In this document: positions 6,395 through 59,229 of the stretch, piece after piece | How the letters are laid out: each line of letters starts with the position of its first letter | Numbering within the stretch: position 1 is the first letter of the stretch | Notes under the pieces: generated by a model | What the model was told of the DNA's origin: nothing | The model's database searches: none | What the model saw: only the letters and a program-made list of their open reading frames with translations | NCBI GenBank assembly: GCA_021777105.1 | Contig: JAIQZQ010000122.1 | Span: forward strand, 32,863-96,862 | Reading direction: 5' to 3' | Length of the DNA stretch: 64,000 nucleotides | Origin: Candidatus Anammoxibacter sp. | GTDB taxonomy: Bacteria; Planctomycetota; Brocadiia; Brocadiales; Anammoxibacteraceae | Made by a program: the position numbers and the translations under genes

Positions 6395-6476
6395 TATCTT
6401 TAAGTATTGGTATTTTAAAAATATTTTTAGACTATAACGGCCATCATTCATTAAACAACAAGACACAAAACTATCA

Positions 6477-38465: not shown

Positions 38466-38514
38466 TTGATAAGTAGTTGTAGTTAGAGGACGAGAGTCAT
38501 AGAAAAGAATTTAA

Positions 38515-39120: not shown

Positions 39121-39126
39121 GTGCAC

Positions 39127-39886
39127 CTTTTAATCCCTTTTCATTAATTTTTAGCATATCCATCTTTTTCTTAATGCAATTTATGTCAAAATATTCTCTA
39201 CAGAATCGCCAAATGGTATATTCTGCAAAAACAATAGTATTTAAATTAACAATTAATATGCATTAAAACAAGATAAAACAATTTTTTATATTTGTAACTA
39301 ATTAATATGATGCTATCTTGCTCTGGAAACCTAAAATATCGTTCAAATTTAAAGTATCTATACTCAAAAGCATCAGGTTTGCGAATTTAGTTGTGAAATA
39401 AAAGGCTAAAGCCTTAACTCCGGCAAGCAGAGATTGTTGGAATTTCCCTTTAGGGTTTTATTTCATTGCATTTGAATATAACAATACGTATATATTAATT
39501 TTCGAATACTTGGTTTGTTTGACTATATAATTAATTCAAAACAGAGCCATTTATAGTTTGACGATTTGTCATTATAATTAAGGATTGTATAACGTTCAAA
39601 TGTTTTTTTTTAAACAAAAACAGGCAATGCTTTTTCAGAGAAATAATATTTTTTTATTTTATAAGGTTTATAAATTAACGGCTTATCAACGCAACCAATG
39701 TTACGGCTGAACTTTGTCTAGTTAATACCCGCCGGCATAACTTGTTAAAAGCGAAGCAACCAAGTTAAAATATCTGGAGTTAAGCCTTAAAATGAGTATA
39801 ATATTGAACTTGTTAATTGTGAAATATTTAAGAATTCTTGTTTTAGGGAAAAAGATACGAAAAACACTTTTTGAAAGATTAAATGA
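39127..39886. other. Non-coding region with dispersed repeat
   Basis: The spacer between divergent MlaC-like genes is AT-rich. It contains only the dispersed repeat copy at 39370-39526. I see no gene. Confidence 0.45.
39370..39526. repeat. Dispersed ~157-bp palindromic repeat, copy 2
   Basis: This copy has the same orientation and length as the one at 13034-13190. Identical cores include TAAAAGGCTAAAGCCTTAAC, TTTAGGGTTTTATTTCATTG and TTTGAATATAACAATACGTA. The inverted pair would form a hairpin. It looks like a non-autonomous mobile or REP-type element. Confidence 0.75.
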
Positions 39887-40489
39887 ATGAACTACAGGAT
39901 TATTATATTTAGAATTTTTATTCTAATATTCTCTTTAATTATAATTACCGGAAACATAAAAGCGGAAGAAACGGAGAAAACCTTAATAGCCGGCCTTGAG
40001 CAGGGGTTAAAAGTTCTAAATGATCCCGCCTTTCGCTCGCGGCGCAAACGGGAAGAACGGGAACAGCGATTTTGGGATGAGATATCAAATATTTTCGATT
40101 TTAAGGAGATGTCTAAGCAATCCTTGGGCGTTTACTGGAAAAATGTTGATTTAGATGAAAAAACTGAATTTGTAGAGCTTTTCACCAGCGTGCTAAAAGA
40201 TGGATATATTGGAAAAACCGACAGCTACTCATGTAAAAAAATAGTCTATTTAAACGAAATTAAAGGCAGCAACCGCGCCAAAGTTCAAACCAACTTTATA
40301 ACAAAAAGCAGCAAAGAGATTGCCGTCAACTTCCTTTTGCATAATATCGCTGATAAATGGGTAATATATGATGTGGTTATAGACGGTGTAAGTTTTATAA
40401 GTAATTATAGCGCTCAATTTAAAAGCATTCTTTCAAAATCCTCTTTTAGCGACTTGCTTAAGATGATGCAAAAAAAGGTCTCAACATAA
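39887..40489 (+). CDS. Second MlaC-like periplasmic protein
   Basis: This 200-aa protein has a signal peptide (IFRIFILIFSLIIITGNIKA). It shows the MlaC order: IFDFKEMSKQSLGVYW, FVELFTSVLKDGYIGKTDSY, WVIYDVVIDGVSFISNYSAQF. It is diverged from the copy at 38515. It lies about 290 bases before the MlaA-like gene on the same strand, so it probably serves that outer-membrane complex, delivering or receiving phospholipid. Confidence 0.85.
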   Translation: MNYRIIIFRIFILIFSLIIITGNIKAEETEKTLIAGLEQGLKVLNDPAFRSRRKREEREQRFWDEISNIFDFKEMSKQSLGVYWKNVDLDEKTEFVELFTSVLKDGYIGKTDSYSCKKIVYLNEIKGSNRAKVQTNFITKSSKEIAVNFLLHNIADKWVIYDVVIDGVSFISNYSAQFKSILSKSSFSDLLKMMQKKVST

Positions 40490-40780
40490 GATAGGGGAAT
40501 CCCGAACTGCGGCCAAAAAGCAAATTTTAGCAATTTAATTTTTATATAATCCCGTTGATCCACCGCCTTTATAAAAACAAAACAACAATATATAGTATAT
40601 CGTTGAATGTTATGTATACCGTATTTTGTTTTATAATTTTTAAAAATGAAAGAAACCAATTAAGGCATATATAATTGTAGACTTTGGTACATAAGTTAGT
40701 TATAATTTAAACTTTTATAATTCCGAACCAATCTCTTTTTACATACCTCATATACATTTTAAGCAGGAGTATAATAAATA

Positions 40781-41566
40781 ATGAAAAAGTCTATTTTACT
40801 AAGTTTAATTTTTGTTTTTACAATTTGCATGTTCAATGCCCAAACGCAAACACTCTGGGCCGATGAGCAGTTAAACATAGAAGATGTCCCAGGAGGGGAA
40901 GAACAAGAGTACCAAGATTTCGAAGATGAATTTCATGACGAAGAATTTTCAGGCCACGGGAATAATGATCCTTTAGAAAATTACAATAGGCCTGTATTCA
41001 AATTTAACGACAACGTTTACAACTATGGCATTAAGCCTTTTAACAAAGGCTACGAACTTGTGCCTGAACCTGCCAGAGCAAGCGTTAGAAAATTTTTCAC
41101 TAATATCTTTATGCCGGGCAGGTTCCTTAACTGCCTTTTTCAGGGAAAAATGAAAGGGGCCGGCACGGAAATGGCCAGGTTTATTATAAACAGCAGCATG
41201 GGAATCGGCGGGCTTTTTGATCCGGCAAAAAAGTTTTTTAACCTGGAATTGCAAGACGAAGATTTTGGACAAACATTGGCAAGATACGGAGTTAAAGACG
41301 GAGCATATATTGTTATGCCTTTTATCGGCCCGTCAAACGTAAGAGACACAATAGGTTTTATTGGCGATATAGCGATGAACCCGCTGACATTTGTGTCAAT
41401 ATTTGTTACGCCATTTGCCTCGATAGGCAATCCGTATGCAACAGTGAACGACTTCTCGCTGGACGAGGGGCAACTTTATGAAAGCGTTGTAGACGCAGCT
41501 ATTGATCCATATGTGGCCATACAGGACGCTTACATACAAAATCGTAAAAAAAAAATAGAAGAGTAA
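40781..41566 (+). CDS. mlaA: MlaA/VacJ-like outer-membrane lipid protein
   Basis: This 261-aa protein has an N-terminal signal (ILLSLIFVFTICMFNAQTQ), an acidic spacer (residues 30-60) and the MlaA domain (about 62-250): DPLENYNRPVFKFND, PFNKGYELVPEPARASVR, FFTNIFMPGRFLN, GSSM-like SSMGIGGLFDPA and YIVMPFIGPSNVRDTIG. MlaA removes mislocalised phospholipid from the outer leaflet and hands it to MlaC. No canonical lipobox is present (the nearest Cys follows TI), so it may be anchored by its domain rather than by lipid. No MlaBDEF inner-membrane complex is in the window. Confidence 0.88.
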   Translation: MKKSILLSLIFVFTICMFNAQTQTLWADEQLNIEDVPGGEEQEYQDFEDEFHDEEFSGHGNNDPLENYNRPVFKFNDNVYNYGIKPFNKGYELVPEPARASVRKFFTNIFMPGRFLNCLFQGKMKGAGTEMARFIINSSMGIGGLFDPAKKFFNLELQDEDFGQTLARYGVKDGAYIVMPFIGPSNVRDTIGFIGDIAMNPLTFVSIFVTPFASIGNPYATVNDFSLDEGQLYESVVDAAIDPYVAIQDAYIQNRKKKIEE

Positions 41567-42988: not shown

Positions 42989-45751
42989 TTATTGAGTTTC
43001 CGTTGAGCTTACCGCAAAACTGGAATACGGTTTAAATTCTCCGTTAATCAGTGAAGAAAGCAGCCAAAATTCCAGTTTGTATAGAAAATGTTGATGTTCG
43101 TCAGGCACGGACTCCGTCTCGCCCATCTCTTTATTCGTGAAAGATGTTGAGATCGCTGCAAAAGCAACCATGCCTTTGCCTTTTTTAACAACTGAAACGC
43201 ATGCCTTGCCGTCGCTAGTCAACAGAGCCGAAGCGCCCCCTGTTATTGGAGAAAAAGACGAAAGAGTCCCAATAGTTTCAGCTCCGTCAATAACATTAGC
43301 TTTCTCCTGAAACTGGTCATAAATAGCCTTTAAGCCAAATTGACCGACAAGTTGGTTGGCAGTTGACAATTTACCCTTTGGACTATCAATGATCAGCAGT
43401 TTCCCTCCATCTTCAACATAATCATTGATATTTTTTAAATCACTTTCTGAAAAATATTTTTGCGGATTAACCATTATAACCATATCAAATTGGCCGGCAT
43501 TGTCGTTAAATGAAAACAGTGTTGGAATATATCCTAACCTTTGAGGCCAAACATAAAACGTTTGGTAATCTATCTCTGGTTTATGAAGAAGCCGCCTGGA
43601 AGGAATCTGAAAATCGCAATACCCTTCTTCAAAACCAACTTTTACCGTTCTCGTATGCTCTTTAGGCAAAGCGTAGCTTTTTTCAGCTAAAAAATCAAAC
43701 AACAACACACCGGAAGCCGCGCCCAGCAATGAGCTAAATACCAAAACTCTCGCAAAGCTCCCTATTGACAAGCGTAAACTGCGCTTTCGGCTAATAATAC
43801 AGTCTTCAAATTGACTTTGCGCGACCTCTATCGGTTTATTTAATTCACGCCTTCGAGCAACTAAAAACAGGTAAACCAAATAACCGAACGCAAGAGCCAT
43901 AACGAAAAGCGAGACTATTTTAATTGTGTAATTGTGGCGATTCGTTCTGTTTAACCAATTTATGCTTCCCAATGCGTATTCAGGTTTGCCCGGTATGTGC
44001 ATATAAAAATTAGAAAAACATGTGCTGTCTGAAAACGCCATTACACGGCCTTTTCCAAATTTTAAACCGGTCGATTGCAAAAACAGACCAAAGGTATAAT
44101 TTAACTCTTTGCTTTTATCCGGAAAATATCCGCCTCTTGCGTAGTCCAAATATATAGCTTTTAGATTTGACGCAATAATCGAGTCTTCAGTAAAAAAAGG
44201 AGCCGTCATAGAACAGGAAGTGGCAAATAGAAAATAGGGCATGTCTTTAATTGAAGGGTGCCTAAACAATCTGTTTTGAGCATGAAAATGGAGGTCATTA
44301 TCTATAAGGTCGTATGTGGCGTCATATTCAAAACGAACTCCAAATCGCGCGGCCAAGGGATTAATATTTATTGTAGTGCCGAAAACATTAGTGTGATCAC
44401 CTATAAGAAAAAGACCGCCTCCATTTAGAACATATTGTTCAATAATGTTAATTTCATCTTTTGAAAACGGCGAAGTTGGAGTTTTAACAATAAACACATC
44501 GCAATTTTTAAGCCTTTCCTCAGTAATAGCTTCTCGCAAGCGGTCTACAGTGTAAAAATATTTTAAATAATCGGCGAAACAGTAATAATTGTAAACAGAC
44601 TGTATACCAAACCACTCAGTGTCAAAAACCCTATCGGTCCACTCCCAATTACTGTAATTCTCATCTATTAAAATCCTGCCTTTTTTCATTTCGCCCGGAT
44701 CCTGAAACCAAAAACAGCTAATCAGGGCAAATGAAAATACGAACATAACAATACCCGGCAAACATCGCTGAAATACGGATTGAGAAATCTGCGCACCTAC
44801 GCTAAAACCATCTTTTAAATCCAAAACATTTTCGCTTTTACGTTGCGCCTCTTTGGTATTTAATCCTTCGGACGCATTTTGGCCTTGTGTGTTTTTAAGA
44901 AATTGATGGGGATTAATTTTATAACACGTAAAATACCACAGAATAAACGGCAAAGGGAAGAATGTGCCGGCTACAATAATGGGTTTCCAAAATATCTCCG
45001 CTTTTGTTGTTTCAACAAATCCAAGGCTTAGAAACACATACCTGGCTACCGTAAAAACAATCATAGCCAAAAACAGAATCCCAATCTTCTTTAAAATGCC
45101 GGATTGCGCGCTTTTCTCATATACAAAATAAAATAATACTATTGCGCCGACAAAAATAGTGATAAATGAAAAAAGCCCCAACTTCTCCCAGGAAGTAACC
45201 AAGGAGAGATTAGCTTGTGAAGTCTGAACAAAAAGCGTCTCCTGACTATATGAACAGGGGATCCCCAAACACTTTAATATCCAATAGAAAAATGGAGTGA
45301 AAACATTAATATCATGATATCTTGCCGCAAATTTAAAATATGGAACGATGCAAGCTGTTTGAAAGGATAGAACAAGCCCACTAAAAATAACACCCTCGCC
45401 TATAAATCTAAGAAAACATCTTTGCAGCCCGCATGTCAAAATTATGCCGGCGGCTAGAACATAAAGGGGTATATCATAAGGGAAACGGAACGCATAAATG
45501 CCCAACACTACTGGAATAAGAAACAATCCTGTTTTCCAGGTAAACGCAGGAGGATTGCCCTGTTTTTTTATAGGATCCTCATTAGAGCTTAAACATCTAA
45601 ACCCTGACGTCCGCCAACAACCCAAAATGCCGAGGACAATCCCTATGCCAAGCGCATATGGCCAAAACTCCATATTTTCCGACGCGTAAATCGGGTATAA
45701 AAAAAGACCTGAAGAGGAGAGAAAGAATATCCCCGTCCAAAATAAAATCAT
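42989..45751 (-). CDS. Large membrane protein with GATase-like (DUF4350-type) ectodomains
   Basis: This 920-aa protein has about nine membrane helices at 1-290. A soluble domain (about 350-590) contains VFIVKTPTSPFSKDEI and GGGLFLIGDHTNVFGT, followed by one helix near 625. A second similar domain lies at 760-880 with DLKNINDYVEDGGKLLIID. GGGLFLIGDHT is like the 'yvxxGGgLLilg' turn of DUF4350/glutamine-amidotransferase-like proteins. The helical N-terminus is weakly reminiscent of exosortase-type proteins but lacks the catalytic Cys. It is paralogous to the next gene upstream (45852). The function is unknown; the position next to a giant secreted repeat protein suggests export or assembly. Confidence 0.65.
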   Translation of the reverse strand: MILFWTGIFFLSSSGLFLYPIYASENMEFWPYALGIGIVLGILGCWRTSGFRCLSSNEDPIKKQGNPPAFTWKTGLFLIPVVLGIYAFRFPYDIPLYVLAAGIILTCGLQRCFLRFIGEGVIFSGLVLSFQTACIVPYFKFAARYHDINVFTPFFYWILKCLGIPCSYSQETLFVQTSQANLSLVTSWEKLGLFSFITIFVGAIVLFYFVYEKSAQSGILKKIGILFLAMIVFTVARYVFLSLGFVETTKAEIFWKPIIVAGTFFPLPFILWYFTCYKINPHQFLKNTQGQNASEGLNTKEAQRKSENVLDLKDGFSVGAQISQSVFQRCLPGIVMFVFSFALISCFWFQDPGEMKKGRILIDENYSNWEWTDRVFDTEWFGIQSVYNYYCFADYLKYFYTVDRLREAITEERLKNCDVFIVKTPTSPFSKDEINIIEQYVLNGGGLFLIGDHTNVFGTTININPLAARFGVRFEYDATYDLIDNDLHFHAQNRLFRHPSIKDMPYFLFATSCSMTAPFFTEDSIIASNLKAIYLDYARGGYFPDKSKELNYTFGLFLQSTGLKFGKGRVMAFSDSTCFSNFYMHIPGKPEYALGSINWLNRTNRHNYTIKIVSLFVMALAFGYLVYLFLVARRRELNKPIEVAQSQFEDCIISRKRSLRLSIGSFARVLVFSSLLGAASGVLLFDFLAEKSYALPKEHTRTVKVGFEEGYCDFQIPSRRLLHKPEIDYQTFYVWPQRLGYIPTLFSFNDNAGQFDMVIMVNPQKYFSESDLKNINDYVEDGGKLLIIDSPKGKLSTANQLVGQFGLKAIYDQFQEKANVIDGAETIGTLSSFSPITGGASALLTSDGKACVSVVKKGKGMVAFAAISTSFTNKEMGETESVPDEHQHFLYKLEFWLLSSLINGEFKPYSSFAVSSTETQ

Positions 45752-45851: not shown

Positions 45852-48290
45852 CTATCTAAGCAACAATTCCCTTAATAAAAACATATTGGGGGTTGAATAC
45901 TTCTTTGAACCCTCAAGGTTTTGATTTAAGAGAAAATATGAGTCCGCTATTACAATCAACTCGCCCTGACCATATTTTTTAGCAACAACCGATGGATATC
46001 CCATAGGTTCACATATAACCTCAGTATCACTATTCTCGTTAAAAACAACCGGCCACGCTTCGTGAAACCTGATTTTTATCTTTTTGTGTTCATATTCGCA
46101 CCAACCCAAAGGCGCGCTGTCAATCCCCAGTTCAAAAGACTCCAACAAAGGCAATGAAGCCTCGCTCTCCTCCCACCCTACGGTAAGTATAATCTTCCCG
46201 CCGCTTTCAACAAAACGCCTTAAGATAAGAGTATCTTTTTGGCTAAACGGTTGAGTAGGCGCAATAAGCAGCAAAAGTTTTGCCCGCATTAATCGTTCTA
46301 AACTTAAATCTCTCAAAAGCATAGGGAAGTATCCGTTCCTCATAAGATTATTTCTCAAGCCTCCGATAGAGTCATCTTCCCAGCTCATTAAATCGAAGCG
46401 GCCTTTATGGGAATAATCAATATAGGCGATTTGCTGCTTATCAAAATCAACGCTTTCCGTGTCTTTTATCTTTGACGCGCAATTGGAAAACAGAACCGCT
46501 AACGAAAACACAAATATAAAACTTAACGGCGTTGCCAAATTTGGACTATTCCAAAATGTTAAAAAAGCGCAACATATGACAACAATAATAGATATTGCAG
46601 TTAAAACATGAAATAAAGTAACAGGATGGCCTTGTCCTTTATCCGACAAATAGCGAAAAACGTTTAACACAAATTTGTTAGTCATCATGAAAGTTGTGTT
46701 GTGAAACGATGAAGTATCTCCCACAGCCATAATCTTACCGTCACCGTATCTTGTAACGGCAGCCAAAACATGATCATTCAATGCCTCGTAATAATCAAAT
46801 TTACGGTTGCCTAGAAAGGCGTTTTTAGCATTATTTTTATAACCCCAATCAGAATAGCAATACTTGCCCATAACAACAGGCTCGGCTGGGAAAGCGCACT
46901 CAATAGAAGCTCCAACCCACCATGATCTTCCTATCTCTCTTTTAAAAGAAACCGCCATTGGATGCGGCCTCTCTTCCATAAGGTTATCCCATGTGTATCT
47001 GCCGGGCATTGCCGAATCAAATTTAAAACTGATATTGACCGGGGCCAGAATTTTGTTAAAATTTTTCATAAGCCCGGCAAGGTCGGTATGGTCCCCAAGC
47101 AACAGCAGACCGCCGCCGGCCTTTACAAAATTCCAAACAACAATAAGCTCTTCCCTAACCAGAGCCTTGTCAAGATTTATCATTACCAAAACATCAGTGT
47201 TCACTAAAGTTGAAACGGTTATGTTGTCAATCATTTTGGACTTAGCCCCCAAACGGCTTAAATGTTTGGGCATAAGGCCAAACATGCCGCCGCTTCGCTG
47301 CCCATAAGTCCCAAACCTCGGGACTTCCCAATCCAAAGAGCCTTTTTTGTAAAAAGCTATAGACTTTCCTTCAACTGAGCTGTCCTTAAAATAAGGGGCA
47401 ACTAAAAATATAATCGCGGCAATAAAAACAACCAAGCTAGGCGCGGCAAACTTATAAGATTTTTTTACTAAAAGAATAGGAACTTCATTTAAGTTTATAT
47501 TTTTATAAAAAAGCGTTGATGGACAGAGGATGAGAAAAAGAAAGAACTGTGTATATAAATCACTCCTGTAAATCGTAAACCTTAACTTGTGGCTAAAATA
47601 CATAGTTAAGAGATTAGCCCCAATTAAAATTATGCCGGCAAGATAAATATATAACAAAGCAAGGCAAAATCTTGTTACGCTTCTGTCTCTGTTCAATACA
47701 AAAAGAACTGAATGGTAAATAACAAAAGAGACAAGAATAAAAAAGCCGAATGATGTAGGCCCAAGATTTAAAACAGTGTTGAAAATAAAACCACATACAC
47801 TTGAAAATACACGAGCATATAGTTGAACAAAATGCCAGCAATTGGGAAAATATTCATAAAAGAAGATAACAAAAGCGAAAAATATTGTTATCAACAATGG
47901 AATAGCGTGTTCATTCAGGGAAGTTTTTTTCCGCGCATTGAGGAGATATAAACAAAGCAGGAAAGCTGAAAGGGCTGAAAGTTGGAGCAGGTTGTTGCTT
48001 ATTCGCGAAATAACTAGGGCAAATACAATAAAGAAGATGTATAGCACAAATTTTTCAATAAAAAACGCCAATGCAGGATGAACGCCGACGCTACCGTAAT
48101 GAGAGCCTGAGGGTGCAGAATCGGCTTTTTTTGACCATATACATAGATTTAAAGAACTGGATAAAAATATGTATACAACTAACGGAGTAAAAACCAGTAA
48201 AGATTCAGCGGCTTTTGAAAGAGGCCCAAAGTTTTGACATATTAAACCAAAAACTAATAAGACTATAAAAGTTTTAAATTGATCGCGCAT
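45852..48290 (-). CDS. Paralogous large membrane protein with GATase-like ectodomains
   Basis: It encodes 812 aa from the ATG at 48290 (a GTG at 48302 is possible). About ten helices lie in residues 1-300, then a soluble domain (about 310-540) with VKAGGGLLLLGDHTDLAGL, two more helices near 555-605, and a second domain to the end (FVESGGKIILTVGWEE). Domain order and the GGGLLLLGDHTD motif match the downstream gene at 42989, so the pair arose by duplication. The order is 45852 then 42989 on the transcript, after the repeat protein. It likely acts at the inner membrane with its ectodomain outside; this is inferred. Confidence 0.65.
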   Translation of the reverse strand: MRDQFKTFIVLLVFGLICQNFGPLSKAAESLLVFTPLVVYIFLSSSLNLCIWSKKADSAPSGSHYGSVGVHPALAFFIEKFVLYIFFIVFALVISRISNNLLQLSALSAFLLCLYLLNARKKTSLNEHAIPLLITIFFAFVIFFYEYFPNCWHFVQLYARVFSSVCGFIFNTVLNLGPTSFGFFILVSFVIYHSVLFVLNRDRSVTRFCLALLYIYLAGIILIGANLLTMYFSHKLRFTIYRSDLYTQFFLFLILCPSTLFYKNINLNEVPILLVKKSYKFAAPSLVVFIAAIIFLVAPYFKDSSVEGKSIAFYKKGSLDWEVPRFGTYGQRSGGMFGLMPKHLSRLGAKSKMIDNITVSTLVNTDVLVMINLDKALVREELIVVWNFVKAGGGLLLLGDHTDLAGLMKNFNKILAPVNISFKFDSAMPGRYTWDNLMEERPHPMAVSFKREIGRSWWVGASIECAFPAEPVVMGKYCYSDWGYKNNAKNAFLGNRKFDYYEALNDHVLAAVTRYGDGKIMAVGDTSSFHNTTFMMTNKFVLNVFRYLSDKGQGHPVTLFHVLTAISIIVVICCAFLTFWNSPNLATPLSFIFVFSLAVLFSNCASKIKDTESVDFDKQQIAYIDYSHKGRFDLMSWEDDSIGGLRNNLMRNGYFPMLLRDLSLERLMRAKLLLLIAPTQPFSQKDTLILRRFVESGGKIILTVGWEESEASLPLLESFELGIDSAPLGWCEYEHKKIKIRFHEAWPVVFNENSDTEVICEPMGYPSVVAKKYGQGELIVIADSYFLLNQNLEGSKKYSTPNMFLLRELLLR

Positions 48291-48388
48291 TAATGTAGCC
48301 ACTTCTTATAAAAAACCGGATAAGACTCTCTATTTACGATAGTTTACCGGAAACGATAATCCAAACAATAATTATCTCAAATATCTTT

Positions 48389-48436
48389 AAAAAAAAAGCC
48401 TCCTTTATAGAAAAAAACAAACTATAAAGAAGGCTT
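48389..48436 (-). terminator. Terminator 2 after the repeat protein gene
   Basis: On the minus strand a 15-bp stem with one mismatch (AAGCCTTCTTTATAG with CTATAAAGGAGGCTT) is followed by T residues to about 48389. It is the second of two in series after the Asp-Pro/Cys repeat gene. Confidence 0.85.
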
Positions 48437-48469: not shown

Positions 48470-48504
48470 AAGGCGCGGCAAACCATATAAATTTACCGCG
48501 CCTT
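48470..48504 (-). terminator. Terminator 1 after the repeat protein gene
   Basis: AAGGCGCGG/CCGCGCCTT form a 9-bp stem about 30 bases after the stop codon, followed on the minus strand by a short U-rich stretch. In series with the next terminator it shields the membrane-protein genes. Confidence 0.75.
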
Positions 48505-48534: not shown

Positions 48535-51500
48535 CTATGCAGGTAGACATTCAGGCAACGCTGGATCGCTTGTTGGAGCTGGCCCCGTGCCGCCGCCACA
48601 TTCTGGCAACGCTGGATCGCTTGTTGGAGCTGGCCCTGTTCCGCCTCCACATTCTGGCTTTGCAGGATCTCTTGTTTGATCACCGCCTCCGCTTCCGCCT
48701 GGACAATTTGGATCGCCTGGATCAAATGTTGGGCCACCGGTTCCGCCCTGACATTCAGGCTTGGCTGGGTCTCTTGTCTGATCACCGCCTCCGCTACCGC
48801 CTGGGCAATTTGGATCGCCCGGATCAAATGTTGGGCCGCCTGTGCCACCCTGGCATTCCGGCTTGGCTGGGTCTCTTGTCTGATCTCCGCCTCCGCTTCC
48901 ACCTGGGCAATTTGGATCGCCTGGATCAAATGTTGGGCCGCCTGTGCCGCCTCCACAATTTGGATCGCCTGGATCAAATGTTGGACCACCGGCCCCACCC
49001 TGACATTCAGGCTTCTGAGGATCTCTTGTCTGATCCCCCCCGCCGCCGATGCAATCAGGACTGTTGGGGTCTCTTGTGAATCCAAATGAACAGTTAGGAT
49101 CATTAGGATCGTCAGTTGGGAATCCAAATCCGCAATCTTTCGGATCTTTTGTCTGCTCGCATCTAGGGTCGTTAGGATCAACCGTTATCTGGAACTGACA
49201 TTCACGACTTGTCGGATCAAATGTTTTTTGACATTCACGAGAGCCCGGATCAAAGGTTGAACAAACAGCGTCTTTTGTGGCGGTATCGCCGCATCTGGTG
49301 TCAAACGGATCGGATGTCTGACAATCAGGATTAAATGAATCAAGTGTCGCTTTACATCTCGGATCCTTAGGATCCGATGTCTGTTGACATCTTGGATCGC
49401 GGCCATCAAATGTGGCATTACATTCATCCGAAGCAGGATCAAGTGTCGCGCATCTAAAATCCTGAGGATCGCTTGTGAAGCTTCTACATTCATCTGAAGC
49501 AGGATCAAGCGTTTTCTCGTCGCGGCATTCATCATCCGCAGGATCAAACGTCTGCCTACATCTTGGATCGTTAGGATCTACTGTTTGCGCGCATCTAACA
49601 TCTCTTGGATCAAAAGTTACCTGACATGCAGGAGAGCTTGGGTCCAAAGTCACACATCTTGAATCATTAGGATCAGATGTGCTGTTTGAGCACTCAGGCT
49701 CCCTAGGATCAATTGTAGACTGACACTGCGCAGAAGCAGGATCAAATGTGTCTCTGCATTTTAGATCGTTAGGATCTACAGTCTGAGCGCATCTTGGATC
49801 GCGCGGATCAAACGTTACCTGGCATTCAGGCGAACGCGGATCAAATGTGCCGCAGCGCTGATCGCCCGGATCGCTTGTAAATTCACCGCAATCCGGATCG
49901 CGAGGATCGGATGTTGCTCCGCATGACGGATTTGAAGGATCAAATGTTTGACGACACTTAGGATCGTTAGGATCTACCGTGCCCGCGCATCTTGGATCAA
50001 ACGGATCAAACGTTACCTGACATTCAGGCGAACGTGGATCAAATGTCCCGCATCGCGGATCTTTTGGATCGCTTGTAAAGCCTGAGCAAGACGGATCACG
50101 TGGATCGGATGTCGCTCCACACTGCGGATTGGCAGGATCAAATGTCTGACGACATTTTGGATCGTTTGGATCAACAGTGCCGGCGCATCTTGGATCAAAC
50201 GGATCAAACGTTATCTGACACTCTTTTGATCTTGGATCAAATGTGCCGCAACGCGGATCAGCCGGGTCGTTTGTAAAGTTGTTGCATCCCGGATCGCTTG
50301 GGTCGAAAGTGCCGGCGCAAGCAGGATCGTTTGGATCAAAAGTGCCTCTACATCTTGGATCGTTTGGATCAATTGTCGCCTGACATCTTGGATCAAACGG
50401 ATCAAAGGTTACATTACATTCAGGAGCCCTTGGATCAAATGTTCCACAACGCTGATCTCCCGCATCGGACGTAAGACCTTTGCATTTTTCATCTCTTGGA
50501 TCCAATGTTTCCGAGCAAGCCGGATCAGCCGGATCAAAAGTTTGTTTACACTTTGGATCGTTAGGGTCTATAGTTTGTGTGCATCTTGGATCGCGAGGAT
50601 CAAAGGTTTCTCTAACTTTACAGTTTTCGTCAGCCGAATCCAAGGTTACACATCTTTGGTCGTCTGCCTCTAAAGTAGGTTTGCAACCCGCGCTCGGATC
50701 TAATGTCTCTTTACAATCTTCGTCAAACGGATCCATTGTTGCCTGGCAGAAACGATCGTTAGGATCTAATGTTTCAAGACATCTCGGATCAAATGGATCG
50801 TGAGTCACGTTACACTGAGGCGAAGCAGGATCAAAGGTTCCGCATCTTACGTCTTCAGCATCGCGGGTTATATTTCCGCAAGCAGGGTTACGCGGATCAG
50901 AGGTCTCTCCACATGCTGGATTAAACGGATCAAAAGTCTGTTTACACTTAGGATCGCTTGGATTCTGCGTTGGAGCGCACCTTGGATCGCGTGGATCAAA
51001 TGTTTGCTGACACGCAGGCGACCTTGGATCAAAAGTGCCGCATCTAGGATCAGTCGGATCGACTGTTAAGTTTGCGCAAGCCGGATCGCGCGGATCAGAA
51101 GTTGCTCCGCATGACGGATCGGCAGGATCAAATGTCCCGCGACATCTTGGATCGTTAGGGTCAATAGTAAACGCGCATCTTGGATCGCGCGGATCAAGGG
51201 TTACCTGACACGCAGGCGACCTTGGATCAGTAGTTACACATCTTTGGTCAAGAGGGTCTGTAGTAAAACCTGAGCATTGTAAATCGCGCGGATCAGAAGT
51301 CGCGCCGCACGCTGGGTTTGCAGGATCAAATGTTTGGCGACACCTTGGATCATTTGGATCAAGTGTAAACGCGCATCTTGGATCGCGCGGATCATGGGTT
51401 ACCTGACATTCAGGAGACCTTGGGTCGATAGTTGAACAACGAGGGTCAACCGGATCGGTTGTAAATCCTCCACATGACGGATCGCGAGGATCTGATGTGG

Positions 51501-52881
51501 CTCCGCACAAAGGATCGGCAGGATCAAACGTTTGACGACATCTTGGATCGTTTGAATCAAGAGTTATCGCGCAACGAGGGTCAACCGGATCAAATGTCAC
51601 CTGGCAGGCAGGGTCATTAGGACTAAAAGTGAAACAACGGGCATCAGCCGCGTCTTCTGTAAACTTAGAACAGTTTTCGTCGGCAGGATCAAGCGTTGCT
51701 GAACATGCTTCATCCGCTGGATCAAATGTTTGTTTACATTTTGGATCGTTTGCGTCTAATGTAAACGCGCATCTTGGATCGACAGGGTCAAAAGTCACCA
51801 AGCAATCCGGATCTTCAGGATCAAGCGTAACGCATCTTGCATCGCCGGAGTCTACAGTTGGCCTACATTCCGAATCTCTTGGGTCAAGAGTTTCCAAACA
51901 TACCGCATCTCTAGGATCAAATGTCTCTTTACATCTTGGATCATTTGGATCAAGAGTGCGCTGACATCTGAAATCTTCAGGATCAAATGTCACCTGACAC
52001 TCCTCAACCTCCGGATCAAAAGTTTCTTTGCATCTGACGTCTTCCGGCTCCTTTGTCGGATTGCAACCGGATCTTGGATCAAGAGTGTTTAAACAATTAT
52101 CATCTAGGGGATCAAACGTTTCTTTGCAAATTATATCATTAGGATCAAACGTCCTTTTACATCTTACATCGTTAGGATTGAATGTAACTTTACACTCAGC
52201 GTTATTTGGGTCTAATGTAACACATCTGGAATCTTCCGCATCTGAAGTAATTGGTTTTTTACAGTTTGAATCACCTGGATCTAATGTTTCTTTACATTTT
52301 TCGTCATTTGGATCAAGGGTCTTTTTACAAAGAGGATCATTAGGGTCTAGAGTGATTTTACATTTAAAATCTTTAGGGTCTAAAGTGGCGCCGCGTTTAC
52401 AAGATCTATCCCTTGGATTTAATGTAACGCAACGTAGATCATTAGGGTTGCGGGTGATGTTTCTTTTGCCGCCGCAGGTAGGATCATTAGGATCAATAGT
52501 TGGCTCGCAATCAGTATTGTCAGGATCCAAAGTTTCTCTACAATCAAGATCTTTTGGATCAATAGTTTTAATACAACGAGGGTCGTTAGGGTCTTTGGTC
52601 ATCTTTTTAAGACAACGTTTATTCCTGGGATCCTGAGTTCTATCCGCTTTCGAACTCACAGGTGATTTCTCATCGCCGGAATTGGCAAGTTTAATAACCT
52701 TGCTCTGTTTTTCCCAAGCCACAAGCGTGGTGTTCAACCTGTTTTGAAAAATTGGCGATGCTTTATGTTCTTCTTCATTTCCACGGCTAACATTGCCGGT
52801 TAAAGTAAAAACTCCAGCAAAAGCAAAGCAAACAACAAAAAGCAAAACAATTAAACTTCTTTTACTTTTTCCTTTCCCCAT
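48535..52881 (-). CDS. Giant secreted Asp-Pro/Cys repeat protein
   Basis: This 1448-aa protein has an N-terminal signal segment (SLIVLLFVVCFAFAGVFTL), a spacer to about residue 80, then roughly a hundred tandem units of about 11 residues with the form C-x-x-T-[FLI]-D-P-x-[DS]-x-x. Each contributes one Cys and an Asp-Pro pair. Between about residues 430 and 1030 the units are grouped in sixes as a 66-residue (198-bp) super-repeat. A Gly-rich tail (about 1255-1448) has three 34-residue copies with TRDPAKPEC and TFDPGDPNC. The Cys lattice suggests disulfide cross-linking or metal binding, and the Asp residues suggest Ca2+. It is not a thrombospondin type-3 repeat (no D-x-D-x-D-G). It is probably surface or sheath material. 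It has two terminators after it. Confidence 0.85.
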   Translation of the reverse strand: MGKGKSKRSLIVLLFVVCFAFAGVFTLTGNVSRGNEEEHKASPIFQNRLNTTLVAWEKQSKVIKLANSGDEKSPVSSKADRTQDPRNKRCLKKMTKDPNDPRCIKTIDPKDLDCRETLDPDNTDCEPTIDPNDPTCGGKRNITRNPNDLRCVTLNPRDRSCKRGATLDPKDFKCKITLDPNDPLCKKTLDPNDEKCKETLDPGDSNCKKPITSDAEDSRCVTLDPNNAECKVTFNPNDVRCKRTFDPNDIICKETFDPLDDNCLNTLDPRSGCNPTKEPEDVRCKETFDPEVEECQVTFDPEDFRCQRTLDPNDPRCKETFDPRDAVCLETLDPRDSECRPTVDSGDARCVTLDPEDPDCLVTFDPVDPRCAFTLDANDPKCKQTFDPADEACSATLDPADENCSKFTEDAADARCFTFSPNDPACQVTFDPVDPRCAITLDSNDPRCRQTFDPADPLCGATSDPRDPSCGGFTTDPVDPRCSTIDPRSPECQVTHDPRDPRCAFTLDPNDPRCRQTFDPANPACGATSDPRDLQCSGFTTDPLDQRCVTTDPRSPACQVTLDPRDPRCAFTIDPNDPRCRGTFDPADPSCGATSDPRDPACANLTVDPTDPRCGTFDPRSPACQQTFDPRDPRCAPTQNPSDPKCKQTFDPFNPACGETSDPRNPACGNITRDAEDVRCGTFDPASPQCNVTHDPFDPRCLETLDPNDRFCQATMDPFDEDCKETLDPSAGCKPTLEADDQRCVTLDSADENCKVRETFDPRDPRCTQTIDPNDPKCKQTFDPADPACSETLDPRDEKCKGLTSDAGDQRCGTFDPRAPECNVTFDPFDPRCQATIDPNDPRCRGTFDPNDPACAGTFDPSDPGCNNFTNDPADPRCGTFDPRSKECQITFDPFDPRCAGTVDPNDPKCRQTFDPANPQCGATSDPRDPSCSGFTSDPKDPRCGTFDPRSPECQVTFDPFDPRCAGTVDPNDPKCRQTFDPSNPSCGATSDPRDPDCGEFTSDPGDQRCGTFDPRSPECQVTFDPRDPRCAQTVDPNDLKCRDTFDPASAQCQSTIDPREPECSNSTSDPNDSRCVTLDPSSPACQVTFDPRDVRCAQTVDPNDPRCRQTFDPADDECRDEKTLDPASDECRSFTSDPQDFRCATLDPASDECNATFDGRDPRCQQTSDPKDPRCKATLDSFNPDCQTSDPFDTRCGDTATKDAVCSTFDPGSRECQKTFDPTSRECQFQITVDPNDPRCEQTKDPKDCGFGFPTDDPNDPNCSFGFTRDPNSPDCIGGGGDQTRDPQKPECQGGAGGPTFDPGDPNCGGGTGGPTFDPGDPNCPGGSGGGDQTRDPAKPECQGGTGGPTFDPGDPNCPGGSGGGDQTRDPAKPECQGGTGGPTFDPGDPNCPGGSGGGDQTRDPAKPECGGGTGPAPTSDPALPECGGGTGPAPTSDPALPECLPA

Positions 52882-53829
52882 TGTACGGCCTCCTTTTTAC
52901 AATAAAAATTAAAAGATTTAATCTTTTTATAAATATTCTGACATCTCATGTAAAAATAATCTCGCAACTATATCATTAAATTTACTGAATTGTCAATGGT
53001 TATTTTCCATCATTGCAAAACATACAACCCGTCGATTCACCTTTAAAATAGCGGGAATAGCGTTTAATGTCTTTAATAAAAACAAGCAAAATCAATATCT
53101 GCAAATACATTACGCGTATAGCGCTATATATAGATTTCATAATAAAAATAAACAATCAGTTTAGTTTCGACAAAACATCTTAAAGTTTAAGTTTTTTTGT
53201 AATGTTCTACTAAAAACACATTTATAGCTTTTAGAAACTCATTTCAAATAGATAAAATGCGCATATTTGATTTAAGGAAATTTGTTTGGTATAACTTGTT
53301 GCTAAGCATTTGCACATTTCATACCAAAAAAAATATGAAACCAAAAACCAGACATTAATTTTTCTCGATAGTATAAGCAATGCTAAACATATTTTACCTT
53401 TAACTATTTAATATAAAGAGATTACGTTGTTGCGGCGGTTTAATTTTTCATTACGAAAAAAATGATTTTTATGAAGAAGGGATATTGTTTTCAATAAGGC
53501 CTGTTTCTGTTACTTAAAGTAACAAAAACAAATCGGTGGGGGGATTTATGAGATTGCATTTCAAACCACGAACGCGTCAATTCGTTTATGTTCAACAACT
53601 TACAGCAGATCAATCAAGTGTCACAAAATGTGCCGCCGGCGAATTGTTTCAAAAAGTAGCGCCTTTTACCGGGATTTAATGATTAGGAACATTTGGATTA
53701 CAATTATCACTCTATGTGGGTTGGTCAACGACAACAAGCTATGGAATATTGGAACAATGGAGCGGTAGACACGCAGAAAACAAATGTGTTTATCAATGTT
53801 ACAAGTTTCAACTTCCGGTTGCGCAAGGG
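52882..53829. other. Non-coding region with a palindrome
   Basis: The 950-base spacer is between two secreted-protein genes on the minus strand. It contains TGTTACTT/AAGTAACA, extended by TGTTT/AAACA with one mismatch, at 53502-53530. The promoter of the repeat-protein gene should lie near 52900-53000. A diffuse G/C-richer stretch at 53550-53700 looks like a decayed repeat. No gene is supported. Confidence 0.45.
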
Positions 53830-56800
53830 TCATTTTTTCCGAGAGTCGGCGGAGCCTTCAACGTCGGCAAATTCATGCATGCCATCTTTTTTGGCGGAGT
53901 TGTTTTCAGGATTTTTAAAAAATGTTAGCTGTTTTTTTGCCCCTTTGTGCTCAGGATTTATTTTCAAAGCCAGCTGATATTGCGCAACGGCGTCTTTAGT
54001 CTTTCCTTTTTCACTATAAAACATGCCTAAATCAAAAACGGAGTCTGCGTCTTCAGGGTTAATCTTGATTTTCTGAAGCAATTCAAACAATCTTGCTTTG
54101 TCTTGTATCTGTTTATTATTTGGATCCAGATTCAAAGCTTTATTAATGGCAAAAACCGCTTCATCAAGCAGCCCCTTCTCTTTATAAACGCCGCCTAGCC
54201 CCACATAGTTTTCAGTTCGGTTAGGATTTATATTCAGGGCCTTTAAAAAAGAGGAAACCGCCATATCAATGTCGCCATTGCTTTTATAAGCCAAAGCCAT
54301 GCCTCTATAGGCTTCTTCATAATCCGGATCAAACTCAACAGCTTCTTTATACTCTTTTATAGCCTCATCAAATCGTCCTTTATCAAAATTTGTAAGGCCG
54401 AGTATGTAATGCGCGCCCGCCGGGCCGGGGTTGTTCCTTATGGCTATCTTGTAATCATACTCCCTGCCTTTGCCGGTCAGTTCCGTTTGTTTGTAAGCTT
54501 CATTCAGGCTATATCTGGCGACTAACAGGTCGGGATTGATATCAAGAGCTATCTCGTACTCCTTAATAGCTTTATCTATCAGCCCTTTTTCGTAGTAAGC
54601 AAGCCCCAGGGTATAATGCGCGCCGGAGAGTCTGGGATTGATCTCCAGGGCTTTATTATAATTGTTGATGGCTTGATCCAAATCGCCCTGCAGGGCCAGG
54701 ACAGCCCCTAAATTGAGGTAAGATTCCGCAAATTCCGGATTTATATCCAATATTTTTATATAAACTTTTTTAGCTTCATCAAACATGCCTTTATTTGTGT
54801 ATAAATTGCCTAAACCGTCTAAGACTTCTATGGATGCCGGATTTAACGAAATCGCGCTCTGGTAGGAAGCGATGGCTTTGTCATATAATCCTTTGTTTGC
54901 ATAAGCCAATCCAAGCGTATAGTGGGCGTCCCAAAGGTTTTGATTTATTCTTATCGCCTGCAAAGATGATGAAATTGCGTCATCCAGCCTCCCTTTCAGG
55001 GCATAAATAGCGCCTAAATATGTGTGCGCCGAGGCAAGCTTTGGATTTAACGCAATGGCGCGCTTATATTCATATATCGCTTCAAGCAACATTCCATTGT
55101 TATAATAGGCAAGGCCAAGGTTCATGTGCGCTTCTATATAGTTTGGGTTTATTTCAATGGCGCGTTTATATTCATAAATCGCCTTGTCAATCATTCCTTT
55201 AGTTTCATACGTGACGGCAAGAGAATAGTGGGCCTTTGCGTAATATGGATTAATTTCCAGGGCCTTTTCATAATTAAAAATACCTTCGTCATACATCGCT
55301 TTTTCTGTATACGCTATGCCTAATGAAACGTACACTTTGGCCTGATCAGGATTAACCTTTAACGCCTTTCTAAACTCTAAAATCGCCTCGTCCAGCATGC
55401 CTTTGCCGTTGTACGCCTTCCCCAATCCATAATACGCCTCGCTAAAATTGGAATTAATCTCCAAGGCCTTTTTGTACGCATCTACAGCTTCGTCAAACTC
55501 GCTCTTGTCGGCAAGGGCCAGGCCGAGTTTATTGTATGCTTTCACAAATTTCGGGTTTATCGTCAAGGCTTTAGTATACGATTCAATAGATTTGTCAATG
55601 TCGCCTTTGCTGTAATGCGTCAACCCCATTGCGTAAAAAGCCTCGGATGATTCGGGTTGCAGTTTTATGCATTTTTCATATTCGCTAATCGCTTTCTCAA
55701 ATTGATTGGTTCTCAGATAGATCAACCCAAGGTTATAATGAACGCCTGGGACGTTTGGGTTAATTTCGTTGGCCGCTCTTAATTCAGTAACGGCCTTTTC
55801 ATTTAGCCCGTTCATGGCGTAAATAATCCCCAAATTAAAATGGGCGTCAACAAACTGAGGATTAATCCTTATCGCTTCATTATATTCCGCCTCCGCATAT
55901 TCAAACATGCCTTTGTCGTAATAAATCTTTCCGAGCGAATAGTGGCCCACCATATCATTAGGGTTAATTTCTATTAGTTTTTTTAAAGCGTTTATTGATT
56001 CTTCAAACATCCCTTTTGCGGTATAAATTTCAGCTAAAGAGCTGTATGCTTCAACCAGGCTTGGGTTTATTTTGATAGCGGACGCAAGCTGTGAAATTGC
56101 GTCTTCAAACCTTGTCTGCTTTAAATATAGCCTGCCTAAATCAAGGTATAATTCCGCTTTATCCGGGTTAACTTCCATGCCCTTTTCAAACGATTTAATC
56201 GCATTCTCAAAATCGCTCTGCCTTGAATAAACAACCCCCATTGAGTGGTAAACATTAGCCAGATTGGGATTAAGTTCCAGCGCGGCGGCGTACTCCTCCA
56301 AGGCGAGGCCGAGCTTTCCATTTGCCGCATGCAAATTCCCCTGGGAGACATGCGCCCGGGTTAAGCCTTTATTTACATTAACCGCATTTTTTAAAGACAA
56401 AGACGCCTCATCCAATTTATTTCTATCCGCGTTAATGATGCCCAGCTTATAGTACAAATCTGAGGCGAGCGGATTTATCTTCAACGCGTTATTTATCTCG
56501 ATGTCCGCTTTGTCAAGTTGCCCTTTAATCAGGTAAACCTCGGCAAGACTAGTGTATGCGTTCACAGACCTGGGGTTAACTTTAAGGACTTTTTTAAACA
56601 TGTCAACAGCGTCGTCAAATCGGCCTCTTTCCGTGTAAATATTTCCAAGGCTGAAAAAAGCCTCGGCATCTTTAGGATTGATTTCCAAAACCTTTCCATA
56701 TTCATCAATAGATTTATCATAATCCCCCTGATCATAATAAAGTTTTCCTAAATTATGAATAGCCTGAACGTCGGCATTATTAATTTCATAGGCCTTTTCA

Positions 56801-59229
56801 TTTACCGCCCTGGCATCGGCAATGCGCCCTTTCATTGAGTAGATATCGCCAAGACGCGTTTGAATAGCTGAATTGCCGGGGCTGATTGTTAATGCGCTGT
56901 TAAAAGCATTGGCCGCGTCGTCAAACAGCCCTTTCATTTTATAGAGTTCACCCAATAGAACATAAGCGTCTGAAAAGTTTGGATTTATTTCCAGCCCTTT
57001 TTTACATTCGTTTACAGCAAGATTGTACTCGCCTTTTTTATAATAGGCGTCGGCCAGCTTAAAATATAGATAATCAGCTTTTGGATTTATTTCCAACGCT
57101 TTGATTAGAGACGCTATCGCTTCTTGCGTCATACCGTTCTTTAAATAGATATCGCTTAGACACACGATTACTTCAATATTTTTTGGATTAATTCGCGAGG
57201 CTTCCATAAGCTCATTTATCGCCTCTTTTATCCTCCCTTTCTTTTCGTAAGTTTTCCCCAGACCGCTGTATGCGGAAATCATATTTGGATTTATTGATTT
57301 TATCTCATTAAACTGCAAAACAGCGCCGTCGAGATTTCCTTTTAGTATGTAATTGCCCGCGAGTTTCAACCGCGCGTTAACATGCGTGGGCAGTATTTCA
57401 ATTGTCTCCGCAAATTCCTTAATGGCGTTGTCCAGATCTCCCATCCTGGCATAGGCATCCGCAAGTTCATAATGGTATTCGGCGTTTTTGCCGTAAATCT
57501 CTATCGCTTTTTTAAACTCTTTTATCGCGTCATTAATCTTCCCTGTTCTTGAGTATGTCAGACCAAGTCTAAAATGGATTCTTGCGTCTAAAGGATTTAT
57601 TTTTACAGCGTCCACATAGAGAGCAATCGCTTCGTCAAACATACCCTTGCTTGAAAACATTAACGCCAGACTAACCAAACCACCAATCTCATTAGGCCTG
57701 ATTTCCAAACTCTTTTTGTAAGCCAAAATTGCGTCGTCCCTTTGCCCCTTTTTAAAATAGACAGTTCCAAGCAGGCTGTAAACTTCAGCAAATCCAGGAT
57801 TAATCAAAAGTATCTCATTGTATTCAGAAAGCGCGTCGTCGTGCATGCCCAATCTTAAGAATACATCGCCAAGCCTTTTATGCGCCTCAATATTGTTATA
57901 TTCCATATTCACAGAGCGTTGATACTCCAATATTGCTTGCGAATATAGCCCTTTCTTTTCAAGCGTTTCGCCCAGCCTCAAATACGCCTCCGCCCTCATA
58001 GGGTTGCTCGTTATAGCTTTTTGATATTCATTCGTCGCGCCGTCAAGATTCCCTTTTACCGCGTAAACTCCGCCTAAACCGTAATGCGCGTCAAAATTAT
58101 TAGGATTTATTTCTAAAGCCGCTTTATACTCCAACGCAGCCTTGTCATGAAACCCGCTGTTTACCAGAGCTTTTGCAAGCCCGGTGTATACCCACTCATA
58201 TTTAAAGTTGTTTTCAAGCGCGCCGCTAAACTGTTTGATCGCGTCGGCGTGCTTTCCCAAACCAACATAGATCTTTCCCAGGCGCGCGTTTGCCTTGCCG
58301 ATTGCCGGGTTTAGTTCCAGAGTTTTTAAATACTCGGATATGGCGTCGGACTGCATATTTTTCATCTCATAAATTTCGCCAAGGTTTAAGCGCGCCTCGA
58401 CAAAATACTGATCAACACCGACTGCTTTCTTAAACTGCGTAATAGCCTTGTCAAGCATTCCCTCTTTTTTATATATTTCTCCTAATTCAAACCTCGACAC
58501 AGAGTCATTTCGGTTTATCGCCAAAGCTTTGTTAAAATGCTCGACAGCGGCGTCGGTTTCCAACTTCTCCTTAAAAATCTTGCCCAACGCCACATGCGCC
58601 AACGCGTATTCAGGGCTTTCGCTTAAACATTTGTTAAATGTCTCAATCGCCTTGTCATAAATCCTCTGTTTATAATAAGCTATGCCTAAAATATATAGCG
58701 TTGAGGCGTCATGCTGCTTAATATTTAAAGCCCTGTTGCATTCGACTACCGCTTTGCCGAACAAACCTTTTTGCAGGCAGGCTTCCGCAAGCTTGTTGTA
58801 AACTTCAATAAATTTTGGATTAATCTCCTTTACTCTTTCAAACTCGTAAATTGCCGTTTCCAGAAGACCTTTCTGTTCGTACGCAATGCCAAGATGATAA
58901 TGAGCCGCCGCGTGATCAGGATTAAACTGTATCGTTTTTACAAACATTGAAACAGCTTCATCAAGCCTCCCTTTTACCAGGTAATTCAGTCCAGTCAAAT
59001 AATCCTTGTCTTCAACTCCTGAAAATTCCGGATCTTCCTCGGCCTGCTTTATATCCTTTGGCATTAGTTGCGCATCAATGCCGCCGCCTTTTAATATAGG
59101 GGTTTTTTGCTGCCACCAAGGCACCCTCCTTGTTTTTGCGTTAACCTGGTTTTGGCTGCTAATCGCGATCGTTAAAAACGCAAAAACAAGTAAAAACGCT
59201 AATGTTTTGTTTTTTAACACAACATTCAC
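53830..59229 (-). CDS. Giant secreted TPR protein
   Basis: This 1799-aa protein has a signal peptide (LAFLLVFAFLTIAISS, cleavage likely after VNA). A short linker precedes about 50 consecutive 34-residue tetratricopeptide repeats from about residue 70 to 1780. The typical unit is A-[IV]-x-[EK]-[FY]-K-K-A-[LI]-E-I-N-P-x-x-x-x-A-[HY]-x-x-L-G. The C-terminus is charged. Such a solenoid would be a long periplasmic or surface scaffold for protein contacts. It is about three times the length of ordinary TPR proteins, and the repeats are alike enough at the DNA level to shuffle by recombination. It precedes the Asp-Pro/Cys repeat gene on the same strand after a 950-base gap. Confidence 0.9.
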   Translation of the reverse strand: MNVVLKNKTLAFLLVFAFLTIAISSQNQVNAKTRRVPWWQQKTPILKGGGIDAQLMPKDIKQAEEDPEFSGVEDKDYLTGLNYLVKGRLDEAVSMFVKTIQFNPDHAAAHYHLGIAYEQKGLLETAIYEFERVKEINPKFIEVYNKLAEACLQKGLFGKAVVECNRALNIKQHDASTLYILGIAYYKQRIYDKAIETFNKCLSESPEYALAHVALGKIFKEKLETDAAVEHFNKALAINRNDSVSRFELGEIYKKEGMLDKAITQFKKAVGVDQYFVEARLNLGEIYEMKNMQSDAISEYLKTLELNPAIGKANARLGKIYVGLGKHADAIKQFSGALENNFKYEWVYTGLAKALVNSGFHDKAALEYKAALEINPNNFDAHYGLGGVYAVKGNLDGATNEYQKAITSNPMRAEAYLRLGETLEKKGLYSQAILEYQRSVNMEYNNIEAHKRLGDVFLRLGMHDDALSEYNEILLINPGFAEVYSLLGTVYFKKGQRDDAILAYKKSLEIRPNEIGGLVSLALMFSSKGMFDEAIALYVDAVKINPLDARIHFRLGLTYSRTGKINDAIKEFKKAIEIYGKNAEYHYELADAYARMGDLDNAIKEFAETIEILPTHVNARLKLAGNYILKGNLDGAVLQFNEIKSINPNMISAYSGLGKTYEKKGRIKEAINELMEASRINPKNIEVIVCLSDIYLKNGMTQEAIASLIKALEINPKADYLYFKLADAYYKKGEYNLAVNECKKGLEINPNFSDAYVLLGELYKMKGLFDDAANAFNSALTISPGNSAIQTRLGDIYSMKGRIADARAVNEKAYEINNADVQAIHNLGKLYYDQGDYDKSIDEYGKVLEINPKDAEAFFSLGNIYTERGRFDDAVDMFKKVLKVNPRSVNAYTSLAEVYLIKGQLDKADIEINNALKINPLASDLYYKLGIINADRNKLDEASLSLKNAVNVNKGLTRAHVSQGNLHAANGKLGLALEEYAAALELNPNLANVYHSMGVVYSRQSDFENAIKSFEKGMEVNPDKAELYLDLGRLYLKQTRFEDAISQLASAIKINPSLVEAYSSLAEIYTAKGMFEESINALKKLIEINPNDMVGHYSLGKIYYDKGMFEYAEAEYNEAIRINPQFVDAHFNLGIIYAMNGLNEKAVTELRAANEINPNVPGVHYNLGLIYLRTNQFEKAISEYEKCIKLQPESSEAFYAMGLTHYSKGDIDKSIESYTKALTINPKFVKAYNKLGLALADKSEFDEAVDAYKKALEINSNFSEAYYGLGKAYNGKGMLDEAILEFRKALKVNPDQAKVYVSLGIAYTEKAMYDEGIFNYEKALEINPYYAKAHYSLAVTYETKGMIDKAIYEYKRAIEINPNYIEAHMNLGLAYYNNGMLLEAIYEYKRAIALNPKLASAHTYLGAIYALKGRLDDAISSSLQAIRINQNLWDAHYTLGLAYANKGLYDKAIASYQSAISLNPASIEVLDGLGNLYTNKGMFDEAKKVYIKILDINPEFAESYLNLGAVLALQGDLDQAINNYNKALEINPRLSGAHYTLGLAYYEKGLIDKAIKEYEIALDINPDLLVARYSLNEAYKQTELTGKGREYDYKIAIRNNPGPAGAHYILGLTNFDKGRFDEAIKEYKEAVEFDPDYEEAYRGMALAYKSNGDIDMAVSSFLKALNINPNRTENYVGLGGVYKEKGLLDEAVFAINKALNLDPNNKQIQDKARLFELLQKIKINPEDADSVFDLGMFYSEKGKTKDAVAQYQLALKINPEHKGAKKQLTFFKNPENNSAKKDGMHEFADVEGSADSRKK

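Follow-up and report, generated by a model that had tools for sequence, protein, structure and literature searches.

The window analysed here is a stretch of 64,000 nucleotides from Candidatus Anammoxibacter sp. (contig JAIQZQ010000122.1). On its minus strand it carries the gene of a giant repeat protein, here called R, followed downstream by the genes of A and B, both polytopic membrane proteins with extracytoplasmic GIFT domains. R is an open reading frame at 48535-52881 (-) that starts with ATG behind an AAGGAGG Shine-Dalgarno sequence and encodes 1448 residues, with a calculated mass of 157 kDa and an isoelectric point of 4.3. The genome of the window (7.6 Mb) encodes hydrazine synthase alpha and is therefore that of an anammox bacterium; all genomes compared in our study are metagenome-assembled genomes (MAGs) or draft assemblies. 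The features of the locus are the following:

52967-52996 (-): candidate sigma-70-like promoter 5' of R, TTGACA-18-TATAGT, TG-extended, matching the consensus at 11/12 positions
48535-52881 (-): R, predicted secreted Thr/Asp-Pro/Cys repeat protein of 1448 residues
52777-52881 (-): signal sequence of R, with a basic n-region and hydrophobic residues 10-28, without a lipobox
52693-52758 (-): conserved SPIFxxxLxxTLxAWEKQxxII segment of R, immediately ahead of the array
48538-52638 (-): R array, 118 Cys-ended units with the 9-residue T-x-D-P-x4-C block, mostly in a hexad (66-residue) super-repeat
48538-49131 (-): end of the array towards the C-terminus, where linkers are long and Gly-rich, the 9-residue block is intact and tandem periods of 51 and 102 base pairs (bp) occur
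48470-48504 (-): intrinsic-terminator hairpin 30 nucleotides past the R stop, 15-bp stem, -23 kcal/mol, z = -6.25
48396-48436 (-): second terminator hairpin, AAGCCTTCTTTATAG/CTATAAAGGAGGCTT plus a T tract
45852-48302 (-): protein A, 816 residues, about ten N-terminal transmembrane (TM) helices, then an extracytoplasmic GIFT-like domain, a pair of TM helices and another GIFT-like domain
42989-45751 (-): protein B, 920 residues, a paralogue of A across the GIFT regions, with ABC_transp_aux, GIFT and DUF4350

The conserved element of R is a 9-residue block, T-x-D-P-x-x-x-x-C, and not an 11-residue unit. One of the 119 cysteines lies in the signal region, and each of the other 118 closes one unit; Thr stands exactly 8 residues before Cys in 114/118 units, is conserved as strongly as the Cys itself, and has Pro at Thr+3 in 103 of these 114 blocks. 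The linkers from Cys to the next Thr range from 1 to 9 residues and become Gly-rich towards the C-terminus. At a higher level, a six-unit super-repeat of 66 residues (198 bp; Tandem Repeats Finder scores up to 873) spans most of the array, with typical linkers of 3-1-2-2-2-2. R contains 148 DP pairs, its array contains 266 acidic residues, and the Cys-to-Cys spacing is never below 9 residues. An earlier note on this DNA had described a giant secreted protein of about a hundred 11-residue units behind a signal peptide. The giant array is real, and 11 residues is the commonest unit length (66 gaps, with 20 of 10 residues, 11 of 12 and others rarer), but the invariant part is the shorter block with its elastic linkers; the note thus saw correctly a secreted, repetitive and unnamed protein, offered a cross-linked or metal-binding fibre as a hypothesis, and overlooked the Thr, the fixed block and the A-B pair. 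Secretion is predicted from a single N-terminal hydrophobic stretch (residues 10-28) with no further TM segment, and a hydrophobic N-terminus is shared by all five relatives.

The reading frame itself is real, as indicated by an excess of third-codon-position changes between units six apart (200/176/413 differences at positions 1/2/3) and by four relatives in other genomes. The sense frame stays open through 1448 codons and the remaining frames hold 32-191 stops; the regularity of the repeat is far above chance. The promoter call rests on the consensus and, since similar matches are about equally frequent in shuffled sequence, it is weak by itself.

A scan of 84,980 species, which was pattern-based and may therefore miss diverged arrays, revealed four R-type loci elsewhere: one in Ca. 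Anammoxibacter sp. OFTM134, a relative of the same family that also has hydrazine synthase, and three in MAGs of Deltaproteobacteria/Thermodesulfobacteriota. The repeat occurs in 2/392 sampled Planctomycetota. The gene order R-A-B is kept in OFTM134 (L012) and in Thermodesulfobacteriota L017 and L018; in the deltaproteobacterial genome G415, R runs off the contig end in L016 and an R tail precedes A on L103. A and B are each 54% identical between the window's genome and OFTM134 and 43-47% identical across phyla, and A was found in 3/395 sampled Thermodesulfobacteriota genomes, exactly the three that carry R. Judged by sequence, the R-A-B trio is conserved in two phyla. Immediately upstream of R in the window lies the gene of a 1799-residue protein (53830-59229, -) with an N-terminal hydrophobic signal and nearly all TPR repeats; it is not at the corresponding position in OFTM134 (L012).

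A strong terminator hairpin lies between R and A in 4/4 loci with intergenic sequence, the AAGCCTTCTTT stems being near-identical in three of the four, and a hairpin closely resembling the second terminator of R is found 3' of R in L012, L017 and L018. These hairpins suggest that R would be produced in excess over A-B.

As the earlier note had supposed, R belongs to no named repeat family: no family in Pfam or NCBIfam matched, and the PDB gave no credible match. The D-x-D-x-D-G loop of thrombospondin type-3 and dockerin repeats, which the note had also reported as absent, has 0 matches in R, with no Pfam match either. The RTX nonapeptide GGxGxD, the TCTxSxxC antifreeze coil, and a lipobox or LPxTG likewise had 0 matches in R; no pentapeptide motif was found, nor were CxC, CC, CxxC or CxxCH clusters or any Cys pair within 8 residues. 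A weak PDB match to cytochrome oxidase 6B (0.29) and a match to G-beta (0.0033), in which no stretch passes alone, were attributed to composition noise. Searches against plasmids, phages and viral contigs came back empty, and a literature search for such repeats returned nothing relevant.

The motif results bear on a possible role of R as a sponge or shuttle for metals outside the cell, in which its Cys thiolates and Asp residues would bind soft or transition metals or Ca2+, with A-B aiding secretion. The 118 Cys and 266 acidic residues of the array would suit such a role, as would the origin of the close relative OFTM134 in the Oslofjord tunnel, where biofilms oxidise iron and manganese (PMC10732223). 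However, CxC, CC, CxxC and DxDxDG are all missing, cysteines never closer than 9 residues argue against clusters of the metallothionein or Fe-S type, the invariant Thr and Pro are left unexplained, and the T-x-C-P proteins that partner related A-B pairs (see below) lack the Asp residues. Metal binding by R appears less likely, and we regard the sponge or shuttle as unlikely.

Profile searches place A and B in the GIFT domain family. B matches GIFT (8.2e-15) and ABC_transp_aux (2.2e-21), A matches GIFT (1.1e-07) and DUF4350 (3.5e-09), and the GIFT regions of the two proteins are paralogous (hhalign 100%). In an AlphaFold2 model of A, with a predicted local distance difference test score (pLDDT) of 71, about ten TM helices are followed by one GIFT-like domain, a further pair of TM helices and then another GIFT-like domain. 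In Foldseek comparisons with the PDB, this fold is closest to the N-terminal domains of IFT52, followed by GH42 beta-galactosidases; both are also leading sequence matches, IFT52 being the best in the PDB by sequence profile. A sugar-binding role has been proposed for GIFT domains, one of which sits in the oligosaccharyltransferase (OST) subunit Wbp1/OST48 (PMC7226087). Two other assignments were tried and rejected: an exosortase-like origin of the membrane domain, suggested by eye (hhalign probability against PF09721, 0.3% for both A and B; no PF09721 gene was found in the window's genome), and identity with GldG (40 bits against a TIGR03521 equivalog cut-off of 389.85). No ABC genes adjoin A-B in the window or in L012.

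A-like proteins are present in 13/294 sampled Planctomycetota, and their gene neighbourhoods were read. T-x-C-P heptad Cys proteins adjoin A in L049 and L058 and are divergent to it in L050; secreted proteins with C-S-V/A Cys arrays occur close to the A-B pair in L047 and L053, and a short Cys-rich protein adjoins A in L055. In G107, Pro comes directly after T-x-C in 57/59 instances. TPR proteins beside A-B in L046 and L050 carry an SPLYxSTL segment like the SPIFxxxL of R, a short likeness that is only suggestive. In four further Planctomycetota loci (L048, L051, L052 and L056), YD/RHS proteins of about 2100 residues adjoin A; they sit directly upstream of A-B, and the three C-termini that were read (L048, L051, L056) are hydrophobic. 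Array partners of A-B are also found fused to extracellular modules, namely Dockerin_1, GEVED and Ig-like adhesin repeats.

G415 links the two array types, as it holds, besides its R-A-B locus, a second A-B pair beside two T-x-C-P proteins, one of 465 residues directly adjoining the pair and one divergent, of at least 900 residues. The latter, at L102:7872-10571 (+), 900 residues to the contig end, has a GEVED domain and dockerin-like tail repeats. This pairing was found independently of the construction of the T-x-C-P profile, which was built without Thermodesulfobacteriota and strongly matches only G415 among 395 genomes of that phylum. In Planctomycetota, T-x-C-P arrays co-occur with A in 5/9 genomes, a figure that is partly by construction because the profile was drawn from three of those genomes; excluding these three leaves 2/6 (P about 0.015). 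As the profile derives in part from neighbours of A in Planctomycetota, the independent results are those from Thermodesulfobacteriota and the G104/G168 hits.

Phylogenetic analysis of A recovers one clade for each of the partner groups R, T-x-C-P and RHS, all with 100% bootstrap; the clades of R and T-x-C-P, L046 included, are joined at 95/94, and the placement of two long branches, L053 and L055, is unsure. The split by partner type indicates that A co-diverged with its partner. These comparative data speak to the view that the array expanded, selfishly or neutrally, as low-complexity sequence in a secreted protein that is dispensable and serves no specific function. Tandem arrays grow easily, and array length does differ among the relatives of R, but the third-position excess, the block kept across two phyla, the conserved operon with its terminator hairpin, and the co-divergence of partners contradict it, and we consider it the most improbable of the explanations weighed here.

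On balance we favour, with moderate confidence, the reading that R is a secreted structural subunit of cell-surface or extracellular-matrix material and that A-B is a dedicated envelope module for such arrays. R would be exported via its signal sequence, and A-B would receive, modify or assemble the array proteins at the envelope. The T-x-D-P-x4-C blocks would behave as beads on a flexible string, and disulphides between their regularly spaced cysteines would join the chains as a fibre, sheath or matrix. An O-glycan may sit on the invariant Thr, which has its Pro at +3, or the GIFT domains may recognise a glycan, in either case tying the polymer to the envelope. Because array proteins of the group carry dockerin, GEVED and Ig-like modules, R probably lies at the surface or in the matrix. 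We put forward disulphide linkage of R and O-glycosylation at T-x-x-P as hypotheses; an O-glycosylated, Cys-linked polymer is favoured because of the link between GIFT domains and sugars, the Pro at Thr+3 in both array types, and the S-layer protein of the anammox bacterium Kuenenia, which is heavily O-glycosylated on Ser/Thr (PMC5088730).

Several observations weigh against this reading. Eighteen R units modelled with AlphaFold2 from 25 in-register rows reached a pLDDT of 44, with no fold. Strict anaerobes live under reducing conditions, so the disulphide step is on weaker ground, and the varying parity of the Cys units in four complete R-type arrays (118, 135, 86 and 85) argues against strict intramolecular pairing, which we rejected. 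R lacks an anchor or sorting signal at its C-terminus, and among the genes next to the trio none was recognised as a dedicated glycosyltransferase or protein-disulphide enzyme; the reported site pattern of the Kuenenia S-layer is G-T/S-x, not T-x-x-P (PMC5088730). The four relatives with YD/RHS proteins in place of Cys arrays show that A-B is not tied to Cys proteins as such, and adjacency of a partner gene to A-B is no proof of interaction. A regular solenoid or TmAFP-like helix for R was also rejected, given the same pLDDT of 44 for 18 units and the variable linkers, which argue against a fixed coil.

The missing fold suits a related proposal, in which R is a disordered, mucin-like adhesive glycoprotein with cysteines as occasional cross-links and A-B are glycan-handling membrane proteins. 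The Thr-x-x-Pro spacing and the GIFT domains of A-B agree with it, and there is a parallel in the anammox matrix protein Brosi_A1236, whose disordered domains drive aggregation (PMC7482068). Nevertheless, a strict Cys at an exact block length exceeds what occasional cross-links need, and no glycosyltransferase is linked, so that we hold this proposal to be rather unlikely, if slightly less so than the metal sponge. The invariant Thr and Cys at fixed spacing in both array types would also fit a precursor in which an unlinked enzyme installs lanthionine- or ranthipeptide-like links, thioether or other covalent bonds between Thr/Asp and Cys, and CxxxD does occur 15 times in R. That spacing is the minority, however (the C-to-D gap is 4 in 64 cases and 3 in 15), no lanthionine synthetase or radical-SAM enzyme was recognised among the scanned neighbours or the flanking genes of relatives, and a Sec-type signal with a length of 1000-1700 residues is unlike known precursors; we judge it very improbable.

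Beyond the surface-polymer reading, a bolder extension is possible but tentative: A-B may be an undescribed envelope machine, present in two phyla or more, that recognises secreted Thr/Cys-lattice polymers of several sequence types and modifies them covalently, by glycosylation or cross-linking, each type with its own co-diverged A-B pair, so as to build a new class of bacterial surface material. Through our analysis an orphan repeat protein becomes part of a testable gene module of anammox bacteria, a group in which surface and matrix proteins are important for wastewater granules and marine nitrogen loss. The paired GIFT-domain membrane module extends a domain already familiar from gliding, cilia and N-glycosylation, and the analysis leads us to expect that a number of unannotated Cys-array proteins of Planctomycetota form one system.

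Elsewhere in the window, a molybdopterin oxidoreductase at 27414-30119 (-) extends across two adjacent reading frames (profile positions 1-80 and 97-352), which may reflect a frameshift, a split gene or an assembly error. A lipid-transport cluster at 35967-41566 comprises an MMPL protein, two divergent MlaC genes and MlaA; a fusion of metallo-beta-lactamase-like, cyclic-nucleotide-binding and hemerythrin domains is encoded at 18495-21113 (-); and a phage tail collar-domain protein lies beside a 995-residue protein without a Pfam match at 5648-9464 (-).

Among known systems, A and B share a GIFT-like fold with GldG, IFT52 and OST48/Wbp1 (Pfam GIFT, ABC_transp_aux and DUF4350), their own GIFT-like domains being extracytoplasmic and flanked by TM helices. 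Unlike those proteins, each has two tandem GIFT-like regions and about ten N-terminal TM helices, and they form a paralogous pair beside a repeat protein with no ABC ATPase adjoining. Tenebrio-type antifreeze proteins resemble R in conserving Thr and Cys in short tandem repeats, but theirs is a coil of 12 residues, TCTxSxxC, each containing two Cys, a motif not present in R. By role only, R resembles Kustd1514 and Brosi_A1236, large secreted surface proteins of Brocadiales, the former O-glycosylated, for which no Cys array or A-B pair is reported (PMC5088730, PMC7482068). The T-x-C-P heptad proteins of Planctomycetota and G415 are like R in being secreted, in their invariant Thr and Cys with Pro at Thr+3, and in the related A-B pair that adjoins them; they differ in having a heptad instead of a 9-residue block and, often, dockerin, GEVED or Ig fusions, and the likeness between the two is one of residue pattern.

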